Part shown: positions 1 through 14,833 of the stretch, one piece after another | How the letters are laid out: each line of letters starts with the position of its first letter | Position numbering within the stretch: position 1 is the first letter of the stretch | Made by a program: the position numbers and the translations under genes | Notes under the pieces: generated by a model | The model's database searches: none | What the model was told of the DNA's origin: nothing | The model's input: only the letters and a program-made list of their open reading frames with translations | Assembly: GCA_947489685.1 (NCBI GenBank) | Contig: CANLEM010000001.1 | Location: forward strand, 992,001 to 1,056,000 | Direction: 5' to 3' | From: an uncultured Aquimarina sp. | GTDB lineage: Bacteria > Bacteroidota > Bacteroidia > Flavobacteriales > Flavobacteriaceae | DNA: 64,000 nt

Positions 1-3000
1 TAGTATTTTTTTCATCTTTTGTAGATGTAATACCTTCAAATTCTGGAAGTATAGCTTTTTCTGAGGTTAGTATTTTATTTGGATAAGATAGAATGAGATC
101 ATTTTCGCCTTTCGAAATTACAATTTCACTTTCATCTAAATGATTCGTACCATTTTTAAGGAATACTTTAAATGAAGTACCAACATTTTCTTTACTATCT
201 ACGGTGATTTTTCCCTTGTGTAACGCTACCACTTGTTGGGCAATATGAAGTCCGATACCGCTTCCTTGGTTAAAATGTTTTTGATAGTGCAAATCACTGG
301 CAACTTCATAATATGGATTAAATATTTTATCTATAAACGCTGCATTAATTCCTTTGCCGTTATCCGATATTTCTATTACTATTTCATCTTGTTTCTGATT
401 AATTACAATTTTTATGGTTCCCCCTTTTGGGGTGTACTTAAAGGCATTAGAAATGATGTTGTAAAATACTTTCTCTAATTTACTTTGGTCGTAGAATATT
501 TGGATATTTGCTATAGCGGTTTCGAATGTATATGTATAATTTCCTACATCTGCATATTCTTGAAACGATTGATAAATTGTTTCTAATAGTTTAACGATGT
601 CTCCTTTTTCTGCATTCAATTTAGAATGTTTAGCATCAAAAGCCCTAAAATCCAGAAGTTGATTGGTAAGTTTAAGAAGTTGGCTTGCATTACGCTCTAT
701 AATAACTAATTTTTTGAACATTTCTTTGGTGCCTCTGTAGTTCTCAATTAGTTGCTGTAAAGGTGCTAGAATAAGAGTAAGAGGTGTTCTGAAATCGTGA
801 GATATATTGGTAAAAAAGTCTAATTTTGATTGGTTAATTTCTTCTTGCCGGATACTCTCAAGACGCTCTAATCGTAGTTTATGCGCCAAAATGATCTTAG
901 CCCTTAGGTTGTTGTAAATTAGATATAGAATAAATAATGCCATTCCTAAATACAGCATATATGCTATTGGGGTTTTCCAAATGGTAGCTTTAACTTTAAT
1001 AGGTATCGATGTAGGTTCACCATACCACGTATTTTCATTATTTGCTTCTTTAACTTCAAAAATATAATCACCTGGTTTTTGAATCGTATAACTTACTTCA
1101 TGAGTATTGGTAAACTTCCAATCATTATTAAGGCCTATCAGGCGATATGCATAATTATGGTTTCGACCACCAATATAATTAGGTAAAGCAAAATGTATAG
1201 AAAAAGAGTTTTCAGTATGCTTTAATACGATCTTATCCAAATAGGAGATGCTCTGATCTATCGGTGTTCCATTTACATTTAATTCAGTAAGAATAATCTT
1301 AGGAGTATTTGTATATTTTTTTACCTGTTTGGGATTAAAAAATGATACTCCTCGTATACCACCAAAATATAAATTTTCGTTAGTAGCTTTTAAGTAAGAA
1401 TTGTTTATAAATTCATTACCCATAAAATACTCTGTCTGATTATAAATGATTGATTTTTTGGTATTCTTACTGTATTTTACCATCCCCAGGTTACATCCAA
1501 TCCATAGGTTAGCCATATCATCTTCAACTATACTAAAAGCTGATGTGATTTCTGAATTTAATAAATTAAGATCTAACTTTTGAAAATTATTATCCTCAAA
1601 TCTGAGTATACCTCTTTCTTTTGTTCCCACAAGAATATGACCTAAGGTATCTTCATAAATGCTAATAATGTTATACCCATAATAGGTGTCTTGCTCATAA
1701 AGAAAACGTTCTACTTTTGGATTTGCGGATTTTAACGAAGTATTCGTGATTTTGTTAATTCCTTTATCTGTTCCGATCCATAAATTTTTTGAACTATCAA
1801 CTAACATGCATCTCACTCTATTATTAGAGAGAGAAGTTAAAGATTTCCCTTCGTAGGTAATATGTTTAAAACTTTGATTTTGCTCATCGTACACTACAAT
1901 TCCGTTACCAAAAGTCCCAAAAACAAGTTGCTGATCAATTCTTGCAATTGCATATACACTACTGTTATCTAATACCGTATTTAATTCTTTTATAAGATTT
2001 GAATCTTCAAATGTTTTTGATAGTAAATTAAAGCAAGCAATACCGGATTTTAAGGTGCCAATCCATAGCTTGTTTTCTTTTAATAAAAGGGATTTAATAT
2101 TCGAATTTTTTAATCTACTTCCAAGAACCTGGGTAGTTAAAACATCTTGTTTTCCATTTCCATAATTAACTTTTATCCCTTGACCTTCGGTGCCAAAATA
2201 GAATCTACCATTATTGTCTTCTGCTATCGCACTCACTACTCCCAAACCAAAGGCTTGCCCACCTTTTAGTTCGTAAAACGTATGAAAATTATTGTTGTGT
2301 ACATCCCACAAATTCACTCCCCCATAATAAGTTCCTATCCATAAAGAACCATTATCATCTAAAAAAATTTCTTTAATACTATTTTTACTCAAGCTACTTG
2401 GGTTTCCGGCTTGATTGGTGATTTTTAGTAGATTTCCGTTTTTTTCAAGAATAAATAATCCATTATATGTTCCAATCCAAAGGTTACCTTTTAGATCGTA
2501 TTTTAATTTTCTAATATCCTTATTGACGATTGGCTTATTTGTTTGATCAGTATTTTTGTAAAGAGAAGTCCATGTATGGGTGTTCTTTTCAAAAATGAGT
2601 AATCCACGCTGTTTAGTTCCTATCCATAAATTACCATTATCATCTTCATTTAAAGCCTGAATTTTGATAGGTAAATGATCAAAGTTTTGAGTATAACTGT
2701 GTTTTTTAATTTTATAATCTTTAGGCTCTATTTCATAAAGCCCAGAAGAAGTTCCGATCCAAATACGATTTCCCCGATCTTTAAAAATATCCATAACCGT
2801 ACTCTCATATAAATCCGAATCTTCATTTAAACCACTCGTTATTTCTAGAAACTCATCTTTTTCTTTGTGATAAACGAATAATCCACTCGAAGTGCCTAAC
2901 CACAATTGATTGTCATCTATTTCTTTAATAGTTCTAATTGAAAAGTGCTGATTGGGGTTATTTTCTGTGGAATAAAAGTACCGCTTAAAAGTTTGATTAC

Positions 3001-3328
3001 TGGGATTATATCGATTAAGGCCATTATAAGTTCCAATCCATATGTAGCCATCTTTATCTTCTTTTATAGATAAAATATCATTATTACTTAGACTTAATGT
3101 ATCATTAGGAATAGTTCTGTAAACAGTAATTTCTTCACCATCATATTTATTTAGGCCATCTCTTGTTCCTATCCAGATTTGGCCTAATTTATCTTGTTCT
3201 ATAGCTAATACCGTACTTTGAGAAAGTCCCTCAGAAATTGATAAATGAATAAAATTATTGAAATCATATTCTTGAGAAATAGCAAAAAAATGAATTGCCG
3301 AAAAAAGTGCAATGATTTTGTATTTCAT
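1..3328 (-). CDS. Hybrid two-component sensor (HTCS-type), C-terminus cut by window edge
   Basis: Single-polypeptide sensor kinase of the Bacteroidetes type that regulates polysaccharide-use genes. The frame opens at an ATG at 3328 with a short signal peptide (MKYKIIALFSAIHFFAISQ) and stays open to base 1, giving 1109 residues in the window. About residues 30-690 hold many reg_prop propeller repeats with the recurring WIGT.xGL pattern. A Y_Y_Y domain follows, then one transmembrane helix (about 784-808), a HisKA box NISHDFRTPL with phosphoacceptor H844, and a HATPase domain with GSGIGL near 1022. HTCS proteins normally continue into a receiver and an AraC-type DNA-binding domain; that part would lie beyond the edge. 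It is divergent from three secreted polysaccharide-degrading proteins and is probably their regulator (inference). Confidence 0.9.
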   Translation of the reverse strand, partial: MKYKIIALFSAIHFFAISQEYDFNNFIHLSISEGLSQSTVLAIEQDKLGQIWIGTRDGLNKYDGEEITVYRTIPNDTLSLSNNDILSIKEDKDGYIWIGTYNGLNRYNPSNQTFKRYFYSTENNPNQHFSIRTIKEIDDNQLWLGTSSGLFVYHKEKDEFLEITSGLNEDSDLYESTVMDIFKDRGNRIWIGTSSGLYEIEPKDYKIKKHSYTQNFDHLPIKIQALNEDDNGNLWIGTKQRGLLIFEKNTHTWTSLYKNTDQTNKPIVNKDIRKLKYDLKGNLWIGTYNGLFILEKNGNLLKITNQAGNPSSLSKNSIKEIFLDDNGSLWIGTYYGGVNLWDVHNNNFHTFYELKGGQAFGLGVVSAIAEDNNGRFYFGTEGQGIKVNYGNGKQDVLTTQVLGSRLKNSNIKSLLLKENKLWIGTLKSGIACFNLLSKTFEDSNLIKELNTVLDNSSVYAIARIDQQLVFGTFGNGIVVYDEQNQSFKHITYEGKSLTSLSNNRVRCMLVDSSKNLWIGTDKGINKITNTSLKSANPKVERFLYEQDTYYGYNIISIYEDTLGHILVGTKERGILRFEDNNFQKLDLNLLNSEITSAFSIVEDDMANLWIGCNLGMVKYSKNTKKSIIYNQTEYFMGNEFINNSYLKATNENLYFGGIRGVSFFNPKQVKKYTNTPKIILTELNVNGTPIDQSISYLDKIVLKHTENSFSIHFALPNYIGGRNHNYAYRLIGLNNDWKFTNTHEVSYTIQKPGDYIFEVKEANNENTWYGEPTSIPIKVKATIWKTPIAYMLYLGMALFILYLIYNNLRAKIILAHKLRLERLESIRQEEINQSKLDFFTNISHDFRTPLTLILAPLQQLIENYRGTKEMFKKLVIIERNASQLLKLTNQLLDFRAFDAKHSKLNAEKGDIVKLLETIYQSFQEYADVGNYTYTFETAIANIQIFYDQSKLEKVFYNIISNAFKYTPKGGTIKIVINQKQDEIVIEISDNGKGINAAFIDKIFNPYYEVASDLHYQKHFNQGSGIGLHIAQQVVALHKGKITVDSKENVGTSFKVFLKNGTNHLDESEIVISKGENDLILSYPNKILTSEKAILPEFEGITSTKDEKNT

Positions 3329-3935
3329 GGTCTTGGGGATTTTGCTAATACTCTAAAAAGATAACGTTAATTTTTTAGAATAGTATGATTGAACTTCTAT
3401 AAACAGGTTACTTAAAACCAAAATCTTATACTGTTTAAGAGTATTTTGTGGTTAGTTTATGGACTTGTAAATTATTCATTTTTAGAAGTTTGTACGAATG
3501 CACCCCTATTCTCGTACTCGTATATCTATTGCAATTGTTAATATTACAACATCAAATTTTATAGACTATTGTACCCCTATAGTTTGATTTGATAATTGAT
3601 AAAAGTGCTAAACAGAAATTTGGGAAAAAGTAAGATTAACGTAAAAAAATCTAATTATGAAAGCCAATGTAACCCAAACGTCTTTAAACATTAGTGCATT
3701 GCACTAGTTTATTGTTTAACATACCCGAAGGATCCGTTTCCTCTTTGATGATCTAGGGTAGTCGTTTTATTTTTTTATTTAATGGATTGTGATAACGTAT
3801 TGTATGCATTATCAACCTTCCTCGTAGTCATTGTTCAAAAGGTAATGCATGGTACAGTGTACGATGCTGATTCATCTTTGCTATTATTAAATATATAATT
3901 TAAAAAATAACCACAAATCACAAACACACTAACTC
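3329..3935. promoter_or_regulatory. Divergent intergenic region between sensor kinase and secreted enzyme genes
   Basis: About 600 bases with no credible gene, AT-rich, separating the divergent sensor kinase from the three enzyme genes. It must carry promoters for both directions. An octamer, ACCCCTAT, occurs twice in direct orientation at 3502-3509 and 3573-3580, 71 bases apart, which could be regulator half-sites. A TTTG at 3877-3880 lies 56 bases before the first enzyme start, but no good TAnnTTTG box follows it, so I do not place a promoter. Confidence 0.5.
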
Positions 3936-6900
3936 ATGAAAACTAATTATTCTGATCGATCAAAATCATTGAATCAATGGTATTTGATATTACTACTTTT
4001 ATGTTCTTTTCAAATTTCGGCACAATCAATTGTCAGTAAACATGGTCGACTCAAAGTACAAGGAAATACTATTGTTGATAAAACAAATACGCCGGTTAGT
4101 CTTGCCGGTAATAGCCTGTTTTGGAGTAATGCAGGAGATACATCAGATTTTTATGATGGAGAAACAGTAAGACACTTGGCCGATAACTGGAACAGTAGCA
4201 TTATTAGAGTTGCAATGGGCGTAAAAGAAACTTGGGATGCGGGCAATGGTTATATAGATAGCCCTAATGCTCAAAAAGTTAAAATCAGAAAAGTTATTGA
4301 TGCGGCTATCAGCAAAGGTATTTATGTAATTATTGATTGGCATACTCATGAAGCTGAGAAATATACACAAGAAGCTGCTGATTTTTTTAAAGAAATGGCA
4401 CGATTGTATGGAGATCAACCTAATGTCATGTACGAGATATACAATGAGCCAATTCGCCAATCTTGGTCCGAAGTCAAAAGCTACTCAAATACAGTTATTA
4501 CAGCAATCAGATCAGAAGATCCAGATAATCTAATAATTGTGGGATCTCCTACTTGGTCTCAAGATGTAGATATTGCATCCAATGATCCTATAAATGATCC
4601 TAATACGGCATATACGTTACATTTTTATGCCGGGACTCATAGTCAGGGATTACGAAATAAGGCTATAGCTGCTATGAATAATGGAGTTGCTTTATTTGCA
4701 ACCGAATGGGGAGCCGTAGATGCCAGTGGAGATGGAGCACTAGATGTTGCTGAAACAGAAAAATGGATGCAATTTTTTAAAGACAATGATATAAGTCATG
4801 TAAATTGGTCGGTTAGTGATAAGCCCAGTAATAATGACCCTAGCAGAGCAGAATCATCTTCGGTAGTTCAATTGGGTAAGGGAATTAACGGATTAAAAAA
4901 TGACCAATTAACCGATACAGGTGTATTTATAAAAGATATTATTAAAACCTGGTCAGACGATTCAAACGTACCAAATCCATCTGAAACTATCAATTGTAAT
5001 GATGTGGATTGTATACTTAGAGCTATGAGAAATGCAAAACCGGGTGACGAAATAGTGATTGCTCCCGGAACATACACGGCTCCCGACAAAGTAGTAATAG
5101 ATGGTAGAGCTGCAAGATTCTTCTCGGATAAAAACGGTACGTCGTCCAAGCCAATTACAGTAAGAGCTAAAAATGCATCTAATCCACCAATATTAAAAGG
5201 ACCAAACGGAAGATATGATGGGTATGTGATGAGAATCTTGGGTGATCATTGGCGAATTAAAGATCTTATTCTTGAAGAAGGTTCAAAAGGATTGGTGTTC
5301 GACAATGCTAATAATGGAATTATCGAAAATGTTACTGTTCGAGAGTTGGGAGAAGAAGGAATTCACCTTAGAGATGGATCTAGTAATAACCTGATAAAGA
5401 ACTGTAAAGTGTATAATACCGGAATTAAAAAACCGGGAATTGGAGAAGGCTTGTACGTGGGATCAGACAAAAAACAACATGATATCTATAACAGAGATTG
5501 TAATAATAACACCATAGATGGTTGTATTGTAGGCCCTAATGTAACTGCAGAGGGAGTTGATGTTAAAGAAGGGACCAAAAATACCATTATCAAGAATTGT
5601 ACTTTTTCGGCAAAAGGAATATCGGGAGAAAATAGTGCAGATGCTTTTATTGATCTAAAAGGGGCCTATGGCTTTGTATACAACAACACCTTTAATTTGG
5701 ATGGATCTAATATTATCAAATCGGGTGTTGATTTCTTGGATCGCGGAACAGGATATAATACAGGCTCAAGAAATGCAATTTTTAATAATACGTTCAATTT
5801 TCAGGGTAGAGGATCAGAAATTCAAACAGCGAGAAAAAAGCAAGGGAACCCTTCAGAAATTCATGTTTGGAACAATACCCGAAATCCAAACACACCCGAT
5901 TTCCCTGTTAGTGATGGGACCTTGGGTTTTGTAACACAGTCATGCCCTAGCTGGAACATAATACCATGTGACGATAATCCTAACCAATTACCAACAGTTA
6001 ATATTACATCTCCCAATGATGGTCAATCTTTTCAAGAAGGCGATGATATCACAATTAAAGCTACCGCTAGTGATAATGATGGTACTATCACTAAAGTAGA
6101 ATTCTATAACGGTTCTGCAAAACTTGGCGAAGATAGAACGGCTCCTTATCAATATAGAATTAACAACGCTCAGGAAGGTACATATAACTTAACTGTCAAA
6201 GCAATTGATAACGATGGAGGGACTACAACATCGAGCAGAGTTGCGGTTACGGTTTCTGGTCAAACAGGAGGTAATAACCCACCTACGGTTTCATTTAACA
6301 CACCAAATGGCAACATTGAAGTAGATGAAGGATATAGCCTTTATGTAAAAGTAAACGCTGCAGATGGTGATGGATCTATTGCTAATGTGAGGTTATATAT
6401 TAATGACAATTTTGTAAGACAAGAAAATTTTGATCCGTACGAATGGGGACATGCGAATTCGCCAAGCCCTAATGAGGTAAATGGATTGTCACCAGGTAGC
6501 TATACGTTTAAAGCTGTTGCGACTGATAATGATGGTACAAAAAGTGAAGCCAGTTTTATACTTACTGTTAAAAGTGGTGATACTACTGGAGGAAGTAATT
6601 GTTCTTATGGTACGCCTACTGTAAATGCTCTTGCACCGTTTGACAGAGCTTCTTTTTCAAATGTTCATGTAATCGGTAATGGAGGTCCAAATGTAGACAA
6701 TATCAAGCGTTTCAGGATTAATTGGAATCCTCAACAAAACGGTTTGTATCAATTTGCAGTAAATACTAAAAATGGTACTCCAAATTACTATGTAGATCTT
6801 AGAAATTTTATGAATTATAGTTTTAATAGTGCGCAACCAGAACTAGTACTCAATAATTCAGGATTACCAGGATGGGATGGTGCTTATTGGGTAACAAAAG

Positions 6901-7253
6901 ACGGGAATAATTTTGTCATGGTTTCTAAAAACAAGGGATTTACGATTTATTTTAATAATTCTAATGCCGCTTCAAATTGCGATAACAAAACATCTCCTGA
7001 AACTATTTTGGATCGAATAGATGATTTCAGATTATACCCTAATCCCATACATAATCATACGCTGTATTTTTCAGGAACACCACAAGATGCTTTGACTATT
7101 GATGTCGCAGATATGCAAGGAAAAGTAATCTTATCAAAAAATATTAAAGAAAGTAATTCACAAGTAGATGTTTCTGATTTAAAAGCAGGAGTCTACATTC
7201 TTATAGTGAAAGGAACAAAGTATAGAAAATCTATCTTATTCACTAAGCGCTAG
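3936..7253 (+). CDS. Secreted GH5 glycosidase fused to a right-handed beta-helix domain, T9SS cargo
   Basis: Modular exported enzyme of 1105 residues. After a signal peptide (cleavage near residue 30) comes a glycoside hydrolase family 5 TIM barrel at about 35-345, with acid/base E171 in YNEP and nucleophile E257 in TEWG; the NWSVSDK and TDTG motifs resemble subfamily GH5_2 endoglucanases. Residues 352-675 form a parallel beta-helix with NxTIxNC-type coils, a fold shared by several polysaccharide lyases; I cannot name its family. Two Ig-like domains (683-773, 782-878) precede a module bounded by C889 and C1015, and the protein ends in a T9SS type A sorting domain (about 1026-1105). It is first of three co-directional enzyme genes. 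Cellulose or another beta-glucan is a plausible GH5 substrate (inference). Confidence 0.88.
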
Positions 7254-7328
7254 TAGATAGTTAGTGTTGAATCTGGGTCATTGGGTAATAGGGGTTACCC
7301 GATGACCACTACTAAAAATATCAAAATC

Positions 7329-9152
7329 ATGAATTATAAGAGTCTTAGAAATAAGTTGGTTGGGTATATGTTGACCACTACTGCATTTGTATTTGCACAA
7401 CAAGATATTGTCTATCAAAATAACTTTGATCAACTTCAACCAGGGCAATATGATGAAGAACAGGCAAAAGAAGCCTTGGGAGTAAATTTTTGCAAGGGAG
7501 CTGATGAAGGAAGAGTATTTGTTTCTGAATTTAGAAGTAAAGGCAATGTTTTAATGGTAAAATACCCTAAAGGAAAAGTAAAAACCAATGATAGTGGTAT
7601 GCATACCAAAGTTTTCTGGAATAACTTTGAATCTTTCGAGGAGCTATATTTCAGTTATAACGTCTATATACCTGAAGATTTCGAATTTAGAGCCGGGGCC
7701 AAATTGCCTGGATTAGCCTATCAAACTCGAGATAGAAATATGTCTCTTCGTTTGATGTGGAGATATGATGGATTGTTGGAGTTCTATAATCATTTTGAAA
7801 CTAGACCATCATGGGATGGTTGGACCGCGTCTGTAAATTGGAGCCTTTTAGACCCTTATGATGAGCGGGGTGGGCCGCAACCGGATCAGGTAAAACTACA
7901 AAAGGGAGCTTGGAACCATATAGAGGTATACCATAAACTCAATACTCCTGGACAAAACGATGGCATAATGAGAGGATGGTTTAACGGAGAGCTAGCTATC
8001 GACATTACAGACAATAGAGATTATAGGCAGTTGGGAGAAGGTGATATAAAGCTTAACGGTATATATCTATCTACATTTTTTGGTGGTAGCAGTAATGATT
8101 TTAAACCTACCAAAGATCAATATGCGTATTTTGATGATTTTATAGTATCCAAAACCCGAATTGGAGACAACTCGGGAGAAGGAGATAACTCACCACTATC
8201 AGTACGTTTTAAAACACCTTCATCTGATCTTACTTTACAAGAGGGATATGATTTGGATGTTGAAGTAGAAGCCAATGATGCTATTGGATCTATAAGAGAG
8301 GTTAAGTTGTATGTTAATGATATTTTTATACGAAGAGAACGTATCATACCCTATACTTGGGGGCATGATCGTTCTCCCAATCCAGAAGAATTAAATGGCC
8401 TAACGGCAGGTACGTATCAAATAAAAGCTATTGCAACAAATAACAGAGGTGATAGTAACGAAACCTCTTTTACCCTTACCGTGCAAAATAATAATGCATG
8501 CAATTTTGTACTACCGGCTTCTCAGGGGATATCGGGTCTGGATAATATATATTATGATCATGTATATGTAATGGGTAATAATGATTCTAATTTTTTAAAC
8601 AATTTTGTTAATTTTTCTATCAAATGGAATCCTCAATATGATGAGTTGTCCAAGTTTGCAGTACTCACAAATAATGGATCTCCCAATTGGTATGTTGATT
8701 TTAGTAAAACAGCTCAATTTCAGCTTAAAGATGTACAACCCGAGATTACCTTAAAAAATACTGGTTTCGAAGGATTGGATGATAGTTATTGGGTTACTGT
8801 ACAAGACGAAGAATTGATCCTAAAATCCAAAAGTAGGTCTACTTTAATTTGTTTTAGTAATTCGGAAGAAGTTCCGCTATGCATGCGAAATAAAAACCAA
8901 GAAATCACTGCAGTGCATAACACGCAAAAAATAAGGTTGCATCCTAACCCTTCAACCTCTTTTATACAATTACAAGGGCTATTAAGAAAAAACACAAGTG
9001 TGCATATTGTAAACAGTGCAGGGACAATAATAGCAAACGCTGCACTTGATAAAAACAATATGCTCGATGTAACTGGTTTATCAAATGGATATTATTTTTT
9101 GGTTGTTAAAGATGATAGATATCAAAAGGCTATTCCATTTGTAAAATATTGA
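7329..9152 (+). CDS. Secreted PL14-like polysaccharide lyase, T9SS cargo
   Basis: Predicted secreted lyase of 607 residues. I place the start at the ATG at 7329 because a compact signal peptide (MNYKSLRNKLVGYM...FAQ) begins there; the frame is open upstream to a TTG at 7281. The catalytic domain (about 22-280) carries the KLPGL (from K125) and SLRLMWR motifs typical of the polysaccharide lyase 14 family, whose known members cleave alginate or glucuronan. An Ig-like domain with PYTWGH follows, then a module bounded by C391 and C518 that is shared with both neighbours, then a T9SS sorting domain (PNPSTSFIQL to the end). It starts 75 bases after the previous stop, so co-transcription is likely. 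Actual substrate is unknown. Confidence 0.85.
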   Translation: MNYKSLRNKLVGYMLTTTAFVFAQQDIVYQNNFDQLQPGQYDEEQAKEALGVNFCKGADEGRVFVSEFRSKGNVLMVKYPKGKVKTNDSGMHTKVFWNNFESFEELYFSYNVYIPEDFEFRAGAKLPGLAYQTRDRNMSLRLMWRYDGLLEFYNHFETRPSWDGWTASVNWSLLDPYDERGGPQPDQVKLQKGAWNHIEVYHKLNTPGQNDGIMRGWFNGELAIDITDNRDYRQLGEGDIKLNGIYLSTFFGGSSNDFKPTKDQYAYFDDFIVSKTRIGDNSGEGDNSPLSVRFKTPSSDLTLQEGYDLDVEVEANDAIGSIREVKLYVNDIFIRRERIIPYTWGHDRSPNPEELNGLTAGTYQIKAIATNNRGDSNETSFTLTVQNNNACNFVLPASQGISGLDNIYYDHVYVMGNNDSNFLNNFVNFSIKWNPQYDELSKFAVLTNNGSPNWYVDFSKTAQFQLKDVQPEITLKNTGFEGLDDSYWVTVQDEELILKSKSRSTLICFSNSEEVPLCMRNKNQEITAVHNTQKIRLHPNPSTSFIQLQGLLRKNTSVHIVNSAGTIIANAALDKNNMLDVTGLSNGYYFLVVKDDRYQKAIPFVKY

Positions 9153-9186
9153 AAAGACTTTAAAAATAAACTAACACAAACTCATT

Positions 9187-12100
9187 ATGAAATTAAAACG
9201 TCGAGCCATTAATAATTGGCAATTGATGGTAATCTTGATATTGTTAATAATCTCAGGATCCAATGCGCAAAACTGTGATAATAACAGGCTAATCTTTAAT
9301 CAAAATTTCAACCAATACAATGGGCAAAATAAATTGTACACTCGCAGTTTAGCCAACAATGACTTCCCAAGACTTGGAGGGCGAACCTCTGGAGGTAATG
9401 TCCGAGGATTAAGTAATGATTTTCCTCAGAGAAATCGAGTAATTAATGGCGAACTGCGTGCAGAATATACCAAAAATGATGCTAGTGGCAGAAGCGGTGG
9501 TTTTATATTTGACACTAGTTTTGATGGTGTTGAAGAAGCAACCCTCGAGTATCGCGTAAAATTTGCCAATGACTTTGTTTGGGCTACTGGCGGAAAACTT
9601 CCTGGGCTAGGAGGGGCTTCTACACCCAATGGGGCACAACCTGCAGGTTGTACCCAAAATCAAAACACTATTAACAACGCATTCTCTGCTCGTTTGATGT
9701 GGAGGTCAAATAGATCACATACACAACCCCCATATCTTATTGTCTACGATTATTTACCTAATAGAGAAACAAGATGCGGTGGCAATACTCGACTAGGTAA
9801 TTTAAAACTTCAAAGAAATAAATGGTATACTGTAAAACAATACCTCAAATTAAACTCTCCAGGTCAAAGAAATGGTGTTTTAAAAATGTATATCGACGGT
9901 CAAAAATTAGTTGACCTGGACGATGTAGTATTTCGATTATCAGGAAAGGGAAGCGTTAAGATAAATTCGATTGTAATGCATACCTACAGAGGGGGTAACA
10001 GAACTGATCCAGTATGGCATTCTCCAAAGGATGATTATGCATACTTTGATAATTTTAAAGTTTGGACCAACTGTTCAGGAAACTCTGGAGGAGGTAACCA
10101 GTCTCCTACAGTATCGATAACGGGAATAAATAGTTCATATAACGCAGGTAGCAATGTCTCGGTAAATATCAATGCCAATGATCCAGATGGAAGCATTACT
10201 AAACACGAGGTTTTCGTAAATGGTACATTAGTAGACACCGATGGAGCAATTTATACACCTCATGCGATAACCAATCTTCAAGAAGGAAATTATACCGTTA
10301 AGGTTGTAGTAACCGATAATGATGGTGCCACAGATGAAGATACAAAGAGTTTTACGGTAACAGGCTCTACTGGTGGAGGTGATAATTGTGATACGGCATA
10401 CGAAGAACAAAGTGGTTTAGTCGTCATGGAAGCCGAAAATCTTGACACTTCCGGTAATTGGCCTAAAAGATCTGGAGTTTCTGGTTTTACCGGTAACGGA
10501 TATATAGAATGGACAGGAGCTGATTTTTTTAACGATCCTGGAAATGGAGTTGTTACCACTAAAATTAGAATTAATACTCCGGGGCGCTATAAATTTTTAT
10601 CAAGAACGAAGGTTGGCGAAGGGACGAGTACTACTGAAGCTAATGATGTTTGGTTAAAATTTCCAGATGCCGATGATTTTTATGGACAGAGAGGTAGCCA
10701 AAGAGTATATCCCAAAGGTTCAGGAAAGACACCACATCCCGAAGGTGCAAGTGGAGAAGGGTATCTTAAAGTATATTCTGCAGGAACAACAGGTTGGACA
10801 TGGTCTACAAAAACTTCAGACGGAGCCGAAAACTCTAGCGATATCTATGTAGAGTTTGATAATCCTGGAACGTATACTATGCTATTGTCAGGACGTTCAA
10901 AGCATCACCTCATAGATCGTATAACCCTAAACCGCACAAGTGCAAATGCCACAAACTTGTCTCTCGAAGAAACAACCTGTGATGATGATGGGGGAGACAA
11001 TAATAGCAGTGCGTCTATTACAGGTGAACGAAAAAAATGGCATAAAGTAACCTTAACATTTAATGGCCCGAATACTTCAGAAACTGCTAATGAGAATCCA
11101 TTTTTGAATTATAGACTAAATGTAACTTTTACTCACCAAAGCGGTTCTCCATCTTATGTCGTACCTGGGTATTATGCAGCTGATGGTAATGCAGCACAAA
11201 CTTCTGCCTCTAGTGGAAATAAATGGAGAGTTCATTTTGCACCAGATAAGACAGGTGTTTGGAATTATAAAGTTTCTTTTAGAAAAGGGAATAACGTAGC
11301 TGTCAATGACGGTACTAATGCAGGAAATGCTGCAGGATTTATGAATGGAGAAACGGGGTCATTAAACATAAGTGCTTCAAATAAATCCGGGAGAGATTTT
11401 AGAGCCAAAGGACGTTTACAATATGTGGGTGAACATTACTTACGTTTTGCAGAAACAGGCGAGTATTTGATCAAACAGGGACCTGATTCTCCAGAGAATT
11501 TGTTTGCGTACGATGATTTTGACAATACCCCCAATTCGGGTAATCGAAGAAAAAACTTTAATCCTCATAAGGGAGATTGGAACAGCGGAGATCCTACCTG
11601 GAAAAGCGGCAAAGGAAAAGGATTGATAGGAGCCGTAAACTATATCGCTAGTGAAGGATTAAACTCAATGTCTTTCTTGACAATGAATATTAATGGAGAT
11701 GATAAAAATGTGTATCCATATATCGGTAGTAATCAACGTACCCGAATGGATGTTTCTAAAATGGCACAATGGGCAATTGTAATAGAACATATGCAGAAGA
11801 ACGGAATCTTTGCGCATTTCAAAACGCAAGAAACTGAAAATGAAACACTACTTGATAACGGAAACACAGGAACACAACGTAAATTGTACTATCGTGAACT
11901 AATTGCAAGGTTTGGACATAATCTAGCTTTAAACTGGAATCTAGGTGAAGAGAATGGAGGTGGACCGCAACCGGTAGATCAATCACCTGCCCAAGAAAGG
12001 GCGATGGCAGAGTATTTTTTCAAAAATGATCCCTATCGCCACCACGTTGTTATCCATAAACATCCAAATGATTTTCCTGATAACTTGACTGGAAATCAGT

Positions 12101-14037
12101 CAAAACTTACTGGTTTTTCTTTGCAAACCAATCAAGCTAATTTTAGTAGTGTTTTTGGTAAGGTAAAAGAAGCAGTCGATAAATCGAGAAATGCAGGAAA
12201 AAAATGGGCAGTCGCTTGTGATGAACCTGGTGATGCTCGTCAAGCACTTCGACCGGATAATAATGCAGGAAATTCACATACCGATGGAAGAAAAAATGCA
12301 CTGTGGGGTACATTACTTGCCGGTGGATGGGGTAATGAGTGGTATTTTGGATATGAGCAAGCACATTCAGATCTTTCACTACAGGATTTTAGAAGCCGTG
12401 ATAAATGGTGGGACTTCGCACGTTATGCAATTAGATTCTTCGATATTACCGATCTTCCGTTGACCCAAATGAGAAATAATAATGCTCTATCTTCTAACAA
12501 TAACGATTATTGTTACGCAAAACAAGGAGAGGCTTATGTAATATATCTGAAAAATGGTGGATCAACAAACCTTAATTTAAATGGGCAAACTGGACAATTT
12601 ACTGTCAAGTGGTACGATCCTCGTAATGGTGGTAACTTAAAAAATGGTTCTATTACTAGTGTTGGTGGTGGAGGTAACCGATCTCTCGGAAATGCACCTA
12701 ATAATAGTAATAAAGATTGGGCAATAGTAATTACTAAAAATGAAACCACCCCAACAGACAATACACCTCCAACTGTATCGTTGACTAATCCATCTCAGAA
12801 CAATCAGGAATATACGCTCGGAGAAACCATTCAGTTGAGTGCTAATGCATCAGATGCCGAGGGAAGTATTGAAAAAGTGAATTTTAAAATTAACGATTCA
12901 TTTTTTAAACAGGATCAAACCGCGCCATATAGCGCATCTTGGACACCAACAGTAGCAGGAACCTATACAATTGGAGCTAGAGCTTTTGAAGGTGAACAAG
13001 AAGGGCTTTCTACAGAAGTATCCAGAACCGTAATCATTAAGGAAGAAACGGGCAATCAAGCACCGCAAATCTCATTTGCAGATCCTTCAAATAATATTAC
13101 TGTGGATGAAGGTTATGATTTAACAGTGATTGTCAATGCCTCTGATACTGATGGATCGGTATCTAATGTAAAACTGTATATTGATGATGATTTAGTACGC
13201 CAGGAAAATATAGCTCCTTACGAATGGGGACACGATGGTTCTCCAAATCCAGAAGAAGTAAACAACCTTGCTACAGGAAATTATACATTTAAAGCAGTAG
13301 CTACAGATAATGATGGAGCAACTTCGGAGACTACTTTTACATTAACTGTTAGAGATCAAAATGGCGGGGGCGAAGGATGTAACTTTGGTACACCCGCTAG
13401 TGTGGGTATCCCGCTTATGGATAAGGTAAGTTACTCGGATGTTCATATTTTGGGCACTGTAGGGCCGTTATTATCCAATTTTAGGAAATTCACTATTAAT
13501 TGGGCTCCACAAAACAATGGACTATATCAATTTGCAATTAACACAAATAATGGTGCTCCGGATTGGTATGCGGATTTCTCGGATACGATGAATTATCAAT
13601 TAAAGAATGCTGACCCCGAGGTGACTTTGTCTAATACGGGATTTACCGGTCTAGATGGTTCTTATTGGGTTACTATAGATGGGGATAATTTTGTTATGGT
13701 ATCCAAGGATCGAGATTTTACCATTTACTTTAGTAATTCTTCTCAGTCTCCTTCTTGTGCAAATAGGCAAAGTAAAATTTCTTTGTCAAAAGATGGTTCC
13801 CAAAATATAGTGTTATATCCTAACCCTATAAAAAGTGATATCCTATCCATCGGGGGATTAGAAAACCAAAAAGTAACACTGCAAATATTTAGTTTGATTG
13901 GACGTAGAGTGTTGCTGAAAGAAGCTAAAGGAGTTAATGTATACCAATTACCAGTAGAAACTCTAGAAGCTGGTAGTTATATTTTGAATATAAAAGGTAA
14001 TGGCATCAACAAATCAATGCATTTTATAAAAGAATAA
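9187..14037 (+). CDS. Giant multimodular secreted enzyme: PL14-like, carbohydrate-binding, DUF5060-type glycosidase, T9SS cargo
   Basis: A 1616-residue exported protein. Order of parts: signal peptide (to about 28); PL14-like lyase domain (about 30-297) with GGKLPGL at 135-141 and FSARLMWR; Ig-like domain (304-391); a CBM6/malectin-like carbohydrate-binding region (about 400-595, VVMEAENLD); a DUF5060 N-domain (609-728); a TIM-barrel-like glycosidase region (740-1098) with candidate acidic pair E921/E922 in WNLGEENGG; a PF12904-like C-domain (1105-1185, WYDPRNGG); two Ig-like domains (1194-1287, 1292-1388); the shared module bounded by C1398 and C1524; and a T9SS sorting domain. It starts 34 bases after the previous stop, and a terminator follows. 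Carrying both a lyase and a hydrolase suggests stepwise attack on one acidic polysaccharide (inference). Confidence 0.85.
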
Positions 14038-14071
14038 GTACCAAAACTCAACTTTGCTATTTATTAATTAG

Positions 14072-14103
14072 AAAATACGGATTCAAAAATGGATCCGTAT
14101 TTT
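14072..14103 (+). terminator. Rho-independent terminator after the enzyme triad
   Basis: Perfect 11-base stem (AAAATACGGAT and its complement) with a 10-base loop, followed by a T-rich run, 35 bases after the last enzyme stop. It closes the three-gene unit. Confidence 0.85.
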
Positions 14104-14149
14104 TGTTTTAGGTCAATATGTAGAAGGTGTGAAAAAGCATGGTAATTGC

Positions 14150-14833
14150 TTAGTTAGCTACGTTATGCACAAAAAAAGTATATGCCTCTTGGCCCTTAAT
14201 TACTCCTGGGTCTTTCCCCAAAGAAATTTTGTACTTTTTTCGTGTAATTGCAGAAATTTCTTTGGCAATACTCATTGCTTTTTTCTTAGATGTAGCCGAA
14301 TAATAAAAAACCGTTGGACTATCGCTCATCCAATCTGGTTTCTCATCTTCATTATCATGTGTATACCCTTCGATATTAGTATAGCCACTCTTTTTTAAGA
14401 AATTATAAATCTTTGTTCTTTCTGGTTTAGGGATTTTATAGGATTGAAGACTTATTAAGTATCTAGAGTTACTAATAGAAGTAAGTTGTTTGTTTAATTT
14501 TTTGACGGGGTCAATCCTAGAAACGTTTTTAGGAGTACTGGGAGTACTGTTTAATTCTCCTGCCATAGAATCAATTAACTTTTCTTGTTTATTGATGATC
14601 CTCTTTAGGGTATCTATGGTGGCATAAGTTTTATTTTTGAGAGTAGATAATTTTAATAAATTTTTCTCATTGGTTTTATTTATTTCAACTTTTTCATTTT
14701 GAAGTTTAGCATTCTGAAAGTAATAGAAAATGATTATAGCAAATAATAAAATGACTGAAATCAAATACCAAAACAACCTTTTTTTACTTTTGTCGATTTG
14801 TTCTCTACTCAGGTGAAATTCTTCCTTTTTCAT
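14150..14833 (-). CDS. Membrane-anchored protein with coiled linker and SPOR/LytR_C-like C-terminus
   Basis: Unrecognised protein of 227 residues from the ATG at 14833; the longer frame would need a TTG at 14857. A basic N-terminus is followed by one transmembrane helix (about 20-40, YLISVILLFAIIIFYYF), a lysine/glutamate-rich probable coiled coil (about 45-95) and a folded C-terminal domain of about 100 residues (YLISLQSYKI to the end). Its repeating pattern, with SKKKAMSIAKEISAITRKK and a final strand, resembles small periplasmic domains such as SPOR or LytR_C; that is a weak structural guess. It overlaps the end of the upstream membrane gene by 29 bases, so the two are translationally coupled. 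Confidence 0.65.
   Translation of the reverse strand: MKKEEFHLSREQIDKSKKRLFWYLISVILLFAIIIFYYFQNAKLQNEKVEINKTNEKNLLKLSTLKNKTYATIDTLKRIINKQEKLIDSMAGELNSTPSTPKNVSRIDPVKKLNKQLTSISNSRYLISLQSYKIPKPERTKIYNFLKKSGYTNIEGYTHDNEDEKPDWMSDSPTVFYYSATSKKKAMSIAKEISAITRKKYKISLGKDPGVIKGQEAYTFFVHNVAN

Follow-up and report, generated by a model that had tools for sequence, protein, structure and literature searches.

Three neighbouring genes in a 64,000-nucleotide stretch of DNA from an uncultured Aquimarina sp. (contig CANLEM010000001.1, positions 992,001 to 1,056,000; hereafter the window) encode enzymes that share a module with a cysteine at either end. We are confident that this module is CBM113 (also called UKD), a non-catalytic beta-barrel carbohydrate-binding module (CBM) that would act on the insoluble algal wall. 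In the window's list of open reading frames (ORFs) the three genes are close neighbours on one strand, and the module occupies 6600..6980 (+; copy 1, C889-C1015 of gene 1), 8499..8882 (+; copy 2, gene 2) and 13378..13758 (+; copy 3, C1398-C1524 of gene 3), with lengths of 127, 128 and 127 residues. Sequence identity to copy 3 is 52% for copy 1 and 50% for copy 2, and in all three proteins a type IX secretion system (T9SS) sorting domain (TIGR04183) lies C-terminal of the module. An initial annotation, made from the letters of the window, had described this arrangement, which is borne out by the lengths and by a shared PDB match far beyond chance, as are the cysteine positions it gave for proteins 1 and 3. 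Those for protein 2 (C391/C518) are right when counted from an ATG 16 codons after the TTG, but become C407/C534 from the TTG of ORF 7281-9152. The sequence cores it held to be common are present, but loosely: copy 2 has DELSKFA for NGLYQFA, LICFSNS for IYFSNS and one extra cysteine, while protein 1 has PNYYVDL at the PxWYxDF core.

Identity and fold of the module

Scans of the three window proteins against Pfam and NCBIfam listed no family falling on the module, for which the initial annotation, proposing a hidden Markov model search, had known no name. The PDB nevertheless holds a homologue (9KVN), which is the UKD domain of the enzyme CelAly of Aquimarina sp. 2-A2. Copy 3 alone matches it with E 7.4e-51, and at protein level the matches over the module have E 3.1e-48, 1.7e-28 and 3.1e-48 for proteins 1, 2 and 3, confirming homology of the window modules to the founding UKD domain over its full length. 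When a predicted model of copy 3 is superposed on 9KVN, the deviation is 1.1 A across 126 residues, and the model has the UKD fold, a nine-stranded beta-barrel with a 3-10 helix. The initial annotation had itself named a match to a characterised CBM as the finding that would overturn novelty, and CBM113 (PDB 9KVN) is such a family, which rules out a new, unnamed one. The beta-sandwich that it expected is ruled out by the published beta-barrel (PMC13235733) and by the overlay of the copy 3 model.

In the literature searched, the name CBM113 was found in one paper alone (PMC13235733; ISME J, May 2026), whose available portions describe the UKD of CelAly as the founder of the family, with CBM96 and CBM80 as the nearest CBM families. 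The structure, binding and mutants of the 9KVN domain were established there by others. It binds insoluble cellulose and alginate, with Y50, Y63 and Y64 important for cellulose, and a basic patch (R36/K100/K110) that, on the basis of mutants, "may be involved" in alginate binding (PMC13235733). The same source counts 553 UKD homologues, partnered most often with glycoside hydrolases (GH), then polysaccharide lyases (PL), then AA10. The binding shown for the 9KVN domain agrees with the polysaccharide-binding role proposed by the initial annotation, and we infer from the 9KVN homologue that the window copies bind polysaccharides too.

CelAly and the window proteins also share the module's position before the T9SS C-terminal domain (CTD) and the end cysteines (Cys884-Cys1010 in CelAly). 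Of the 184 complete copies in our survey, 182 have both end cysteines, the exceptions being one copy without either (locus L074) and one without the first (L028). A disulfide joining them is plausible from this conservation.

Binding residues in the three copies

Using 9KVN numbering, the aromatic residues of the cellulose face (50/63/64) are all kept in copy 1 (Y50/Y63/Y64) and copy 3 (Y50/W63/Y64), while copy 2 (S50/W63/Y64) has lost the aromatic at 50. The alginate patch (36/100/110) is complete in copy 1 (K36/K100/K110), where K36 stands for the R36 of 9KVN, partial in copy 3 (R36/I100/K110) and mostly lost in copy 2 (V36/V100/K110), which is also set apart from 9KVN by its extra cysteine. 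We predict that copy 1 would bind both cellulose and alginate, that copy 3 would be a good binder of cellulose and a weaker one of alginate, and that copy 2 would have an altered specificity. The triad is a functional site and does not define CBM113, membership of which is set by sequence and fold; with the aromatic at 50 lost, copy 2 is less strongly predicted to bind.

In the mechanism that we propose, the T9SS would export the module-bearing enzymes, which the module would then anchor to the insoluble cell wall of brown algae. The flat aromatic face (50, 63, 64) would contact cellulose and the basic patch (36, 100, 110), in some copies, alginate. Such tethering may raise the local enzyme concentration and bring the lyase domains next to the cellulase domains.

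Some observations weigh against this mechanism. Copy 2 has neither Y50 nor the basic residues at 36 and 100, yet it looks about as constrained as the other two copies rather than decaying: compared with A. acroporae (L051), the proportion of nonsynonymous differences (pN) is 0.175 at a synonymous proportion (pS) of 0.79, against 0.201 and 0.79 for copy 1, with pS saturated and the pN/pS estimate accordingly rough. As it is constrained despite the lost residues, copy 2 probably does something else. In addition, the assignment of the basic patch comes from the mutants of one homologue, and PMC13235733 words it with the caution quoted above.

Two subfamilies within CBM113

To survey the binding residues, a collection with one genome per species was scanned. 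From 100 confirmed loci, placed in order of their match to copy 3, the best 80 (74 distinct) make up the named loci, and the sample therefore leans to relatives of copy 3; 51 of the 74 are from Aquimarina and the others from Tenacibaculum, Hymenobacter, Neolewinella, Flammeovirga and more. Loci L086-L110 have short flanks and were excluded from the counts. Together with the window's own genome, the named loci gave 153 non-redundant UKD proteins (3 redundant of 156 dropped) and 184 complete copies, 3 partial copies having been dropped. We compared 61 lyase-type copies with 112 copies on GH9/GH48, GH5 without PL31, and AA10 proteins (173 in total), leaving aside 11 copies classed as "PKD-cytc etc" (8) or "other" (3).

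The cellulose-binding aromatics are nearly universal among the 173 compared copies: Y, W or F is found at all of 50, 63 and 64 in 163, comprising 54/61 lyase-type copies and 109/112 on cellulases or lytic polysaccharide monooxygenases (LPMO). The basic residues are distributed quite differently. K or R occurs at position 36 in 53/61 lyase-type vs 14/112 cellulase/LPMO copies, at position 100 in 42/61 vs 2/112, and at position 110 in 60/61 vs 80/112, while the complete set is found in 39/61 vs 0/112. As a control, we ranked all 126 positions by basic enrichment, and 36 came first, 37 second and 100 third. In this sample the alginate patch is confined to these 39 lyase-type copies and so is not family-wide, and dual cellulose/alginate binding is, judging by these residues, probably not a property of all CBM113.

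A tree of the copies, built without the six key columns (121 columns; many forks open, root by midpoint only), points the same way. Of the 61 lyase-type copies, 54 fall into a 58-row group (support 95), and of the 112 cellulase-type copies, 108 fall into a 117-row group (support 97). Between them lie three GH5 and seven PL14 copies, the latter with K or R at 36 in 7/7 and the complete set in 4/7. Copy 1 clusters with CelAly-type copies with modest support, and copy 2 falls into a 7-row PL14 clade (support 99) distinct from the seven intermediate PL14 copies. This clade has lost R36 and often Y50, has the extra cysteine in the ICF segment in 7/7 sequences, and looks to be under constraint.

Taken together, these splits make it rather likely that CBM113 comprises two or three functional subfamilies, in which the copies on cellulases and LPMOs would bind cellulose only, the lyase copies would carry the alginate patch, and the PL14 clade of copy 2 would have a third specificity. 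This reading refines the identification of the module as CBM113 and does not oppose it. The separation is nevertheless incomplete. K/R is common at position 110 in both groups, and hence this position does not discriminate between them, and 22 of the 61 lyase-type copies do not have all three basic residues. For ten of the 61, the lyase-type class comes from architecture alone; nine of these ten have the complete set, and without the ten the count is 30/51; when five of the ten were compared with Pfam, one matched BNR_4, one PF14099 and three had no catalytic match. The tree also needs only 3 changes of partner type, giving 2-3 independent pairs, and the link between patch and partner is inseparable from shared ancestry. 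Since partner type follows essentially one deep split, the Fisher p (2e-23) overstates the evidence. The complete set itself needs 13 changes on the tree, and the patch has therefore also been gained or lost inside the groups; position 100 is Q in a GH5_2-only copy (L029) that falls within the CelAly group. Two old subfamilies within CBM113 are thus a sound statement of what these sequences indicate. The fuller proposal, which we hold in equal belief and doubt, is that dual binding exists in one part of CBM113 only, that cellulase-, LPMO- and cytochrome-linked copies would be restricted to cellulose and the PL14-type clade directed to a third, undescribed target, the barrel being retuned by surface charge to its enzyme.

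Could the module instead be mainly a T9SS linker, or an element for folding or stability? It is framed by cysteines, and in 116 of the 184 copies its end lies 84-105 residues from the C-terminus, as such a role might predict. However, many GH9/GH48 proteins and some AA10 proteins carry it at a great distance (up to 1,320 residues) from the C-terminus, in L074 it belongs to a protease-like protein in which no T9SS domain was matched, and the homologue binds polysaccharides (PMC13235733), making this very unlikely. Less likely still is a lipocalin/FABP-like (calycin) barrel with a core that binds some small hydrophobic ligand.

The host genes and their surroundings

Gene 1 (3936..7253, +; 1105 aa) has the same architecture as CelAly, GH5_2-PL31-Big-Big-UKD-CTD, with PF00150, 6kfn, Big_7, 9kvu, 9kvn and TIGR04183 all matched in one chain. 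Its GH5 cellulase domain (4074..4823, +; residues 47-296) matches PF00150 with E 2.8e-58, and its subfamily, GH5_2, is assigned by resemblance to CelAly. The initial annotation had taken this GH5 to be the whole catalytic part, missing a PL31-like beta-helix alginate lyase domain (4983..5723, +; residues 350-596) that matches the alginate lyase 6kfn with E 3.1e-57; the PL31 label follows the CelAly paper. The Big_7 domain that follows (5982..6260, +; residues 683-775) matches the alginate-binding B1 domain of CelAly (PDB 9KVU; E 1.2e-28, or 6e-31 when this segment is searched alone), and has K/K/K at the published K40/R49/R75, assuming a one-residue offset in numbering. In the first Big domain of gene 3, only the first of these three basic positions is kept. 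The B1 match concerns a domain adjoining the module and not the module itself; a second Big domain lies between the two. The T9SS type A sorting domain of gene 1 is at 7032..7220 (+; PF18962, residues 1033-1095; TIGR04183 E 4.9e-11).

Gene 2 (7281..9152, +; start probably the ATG at 7329) encodes PL14-like - Big_7 - UKD - T9SS CTD, and gene 3 (9187..14037, +; 1616 aa) PL14-like - Big - a 195-residue region - DUF5060-type - Big - Big - UKD - T9SS CTD. Their PL14-like domains, at 7536..8141 (+) and 9454..10056 (+), match PF21294 with E 1.5e-31 and 3.9e-34, and both also match the alginate lyase 5gmt (E 1.2e-9 in gene 2; weaker than PF21294 in gene 3). These are thus PL14-like, putative alginate lyase domains. 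The catalytic parts of the three proteins were initially thought to be unrelated, which is ruled out by PF21294 in both genes 2 and 3 and by the PL31-like domain in gene 1.

The Pfam scan places a region running from DUF5060 to Collagen_bind_2, a putative hydrolase, at 11014..12747 (+) of gene 3. It is 82-91% identical to eight relatives, far more conserved than the module. The 195-residue region before it (10387-10971) has no Pfam match and recurs beside DUF5060 in relatives; it is possibly another binding module. Four GH+PL types are given in the available portions of PMC13235733, and none of them combines PL14 with DUF5060. Our set holds five such fused UKD proteins, the window's included, while in L012 (6324-8645, 8842-14280) and L016 PL14-UKD and DUF5060-UKD are separate genes of one cluster, which suggests that the arrangement arose by gene fusion or fission.

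Directly 3' of gene 3 is a terminator-like hairpin (14071..14104, +; 15 pairs, T-containing tail). It is weak evidence for a terminator, because 3500-14300 contains 3 such sites against 6.2 expected in shuffles. Upstream of the cluster, a divergent gene that runs off the window (2..3328, -) encodes a sensor with two-component propeller repeats, Y_Y_Y, HisKA and HATPase. Two-component sensors of this type often control polysaccharide loci in Bacteroidota, and this one is possibly the regulator of the cluster.

Distribution of the module

The window's own genome holds eight clear copies (E 2.5e-30 or better; a ninth match, E 0.04, was not counted). Besides the three in the window, a GH9-CBM3-UKD-UKD-GH48 protein (2139 residues) carries two, a GH5 protein adjoining it carries one, and an AA10 LPMO carries two. 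Within the genus, 32 of 52 genomes have the module; a stretch of A. algiphila (L040) recurs with 100% identity in one genome of that genus (G044), which points to Aquimarina as the genus. Among 397 genomes sampled from the family the module was found in 10 (8 of 237 genera). Searches at the level of order, class and phylum, with 395 genomes each, found it in 6 (one of them a marginal, partial match, E 9e-4), 2 and 4 genomes, respectively. There is overlap between these samples, and the window's own genome is part of every one. In the scans from family to phylum about 10-11 candidates per genome were scored fully, making per-genome copy counts lower bounds.

Some module-bearing proteins depart from the usual partners. 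UKD proteins of about 2,240-2,340 residues in L040 (8806-15756), L047, L053, L063, L069 and L084 have two CxxCH haem motifs each (6/6). Those scanned (L040, L063, L084) contain MauG-like, cytochrome c, CBM3, PKD and T9SS CTD domains, and in L040, L047 and L053 the gene lies directly 3' of GH48 and GH5 UKD genes. The haem region is matched in 21 of the 52 genus genomes, all within the 32 holding UKD, and has no match in the window's genome. Such a protein could be a putative cellulose-tethered redox partner for LPMO. The product of L074 (8768-9985, -) is a putative M57/M10-like metalloprotease whose start resembles that of a lipoprotein; it carries a diverged UKD without end cysteines and has no T9SS match. 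L076 (5166-9422) joins GH5, CBM6, PKD, GH8 and UKD in one chain.

Significance

CBM113 and its binding to cellulose and alginate were already known. The homology, the fold of copy 3, the residue states and the distribution among the sampled genomes were observed in this analysis, with the residue survey and the subfamily split as the new elements. The window's unnamed module now belongs to a family for which a structure has been solved and binding measured, which closes the question of its identity, and functional labels can be used for a module that no Pfam or NCBIfam model covers in the window proteins. For the family, the claim that one domain binds two chemically dissimilar polymers may not extend to the copies on cellulases and LPMOs, which are 112 of the 173 compared.

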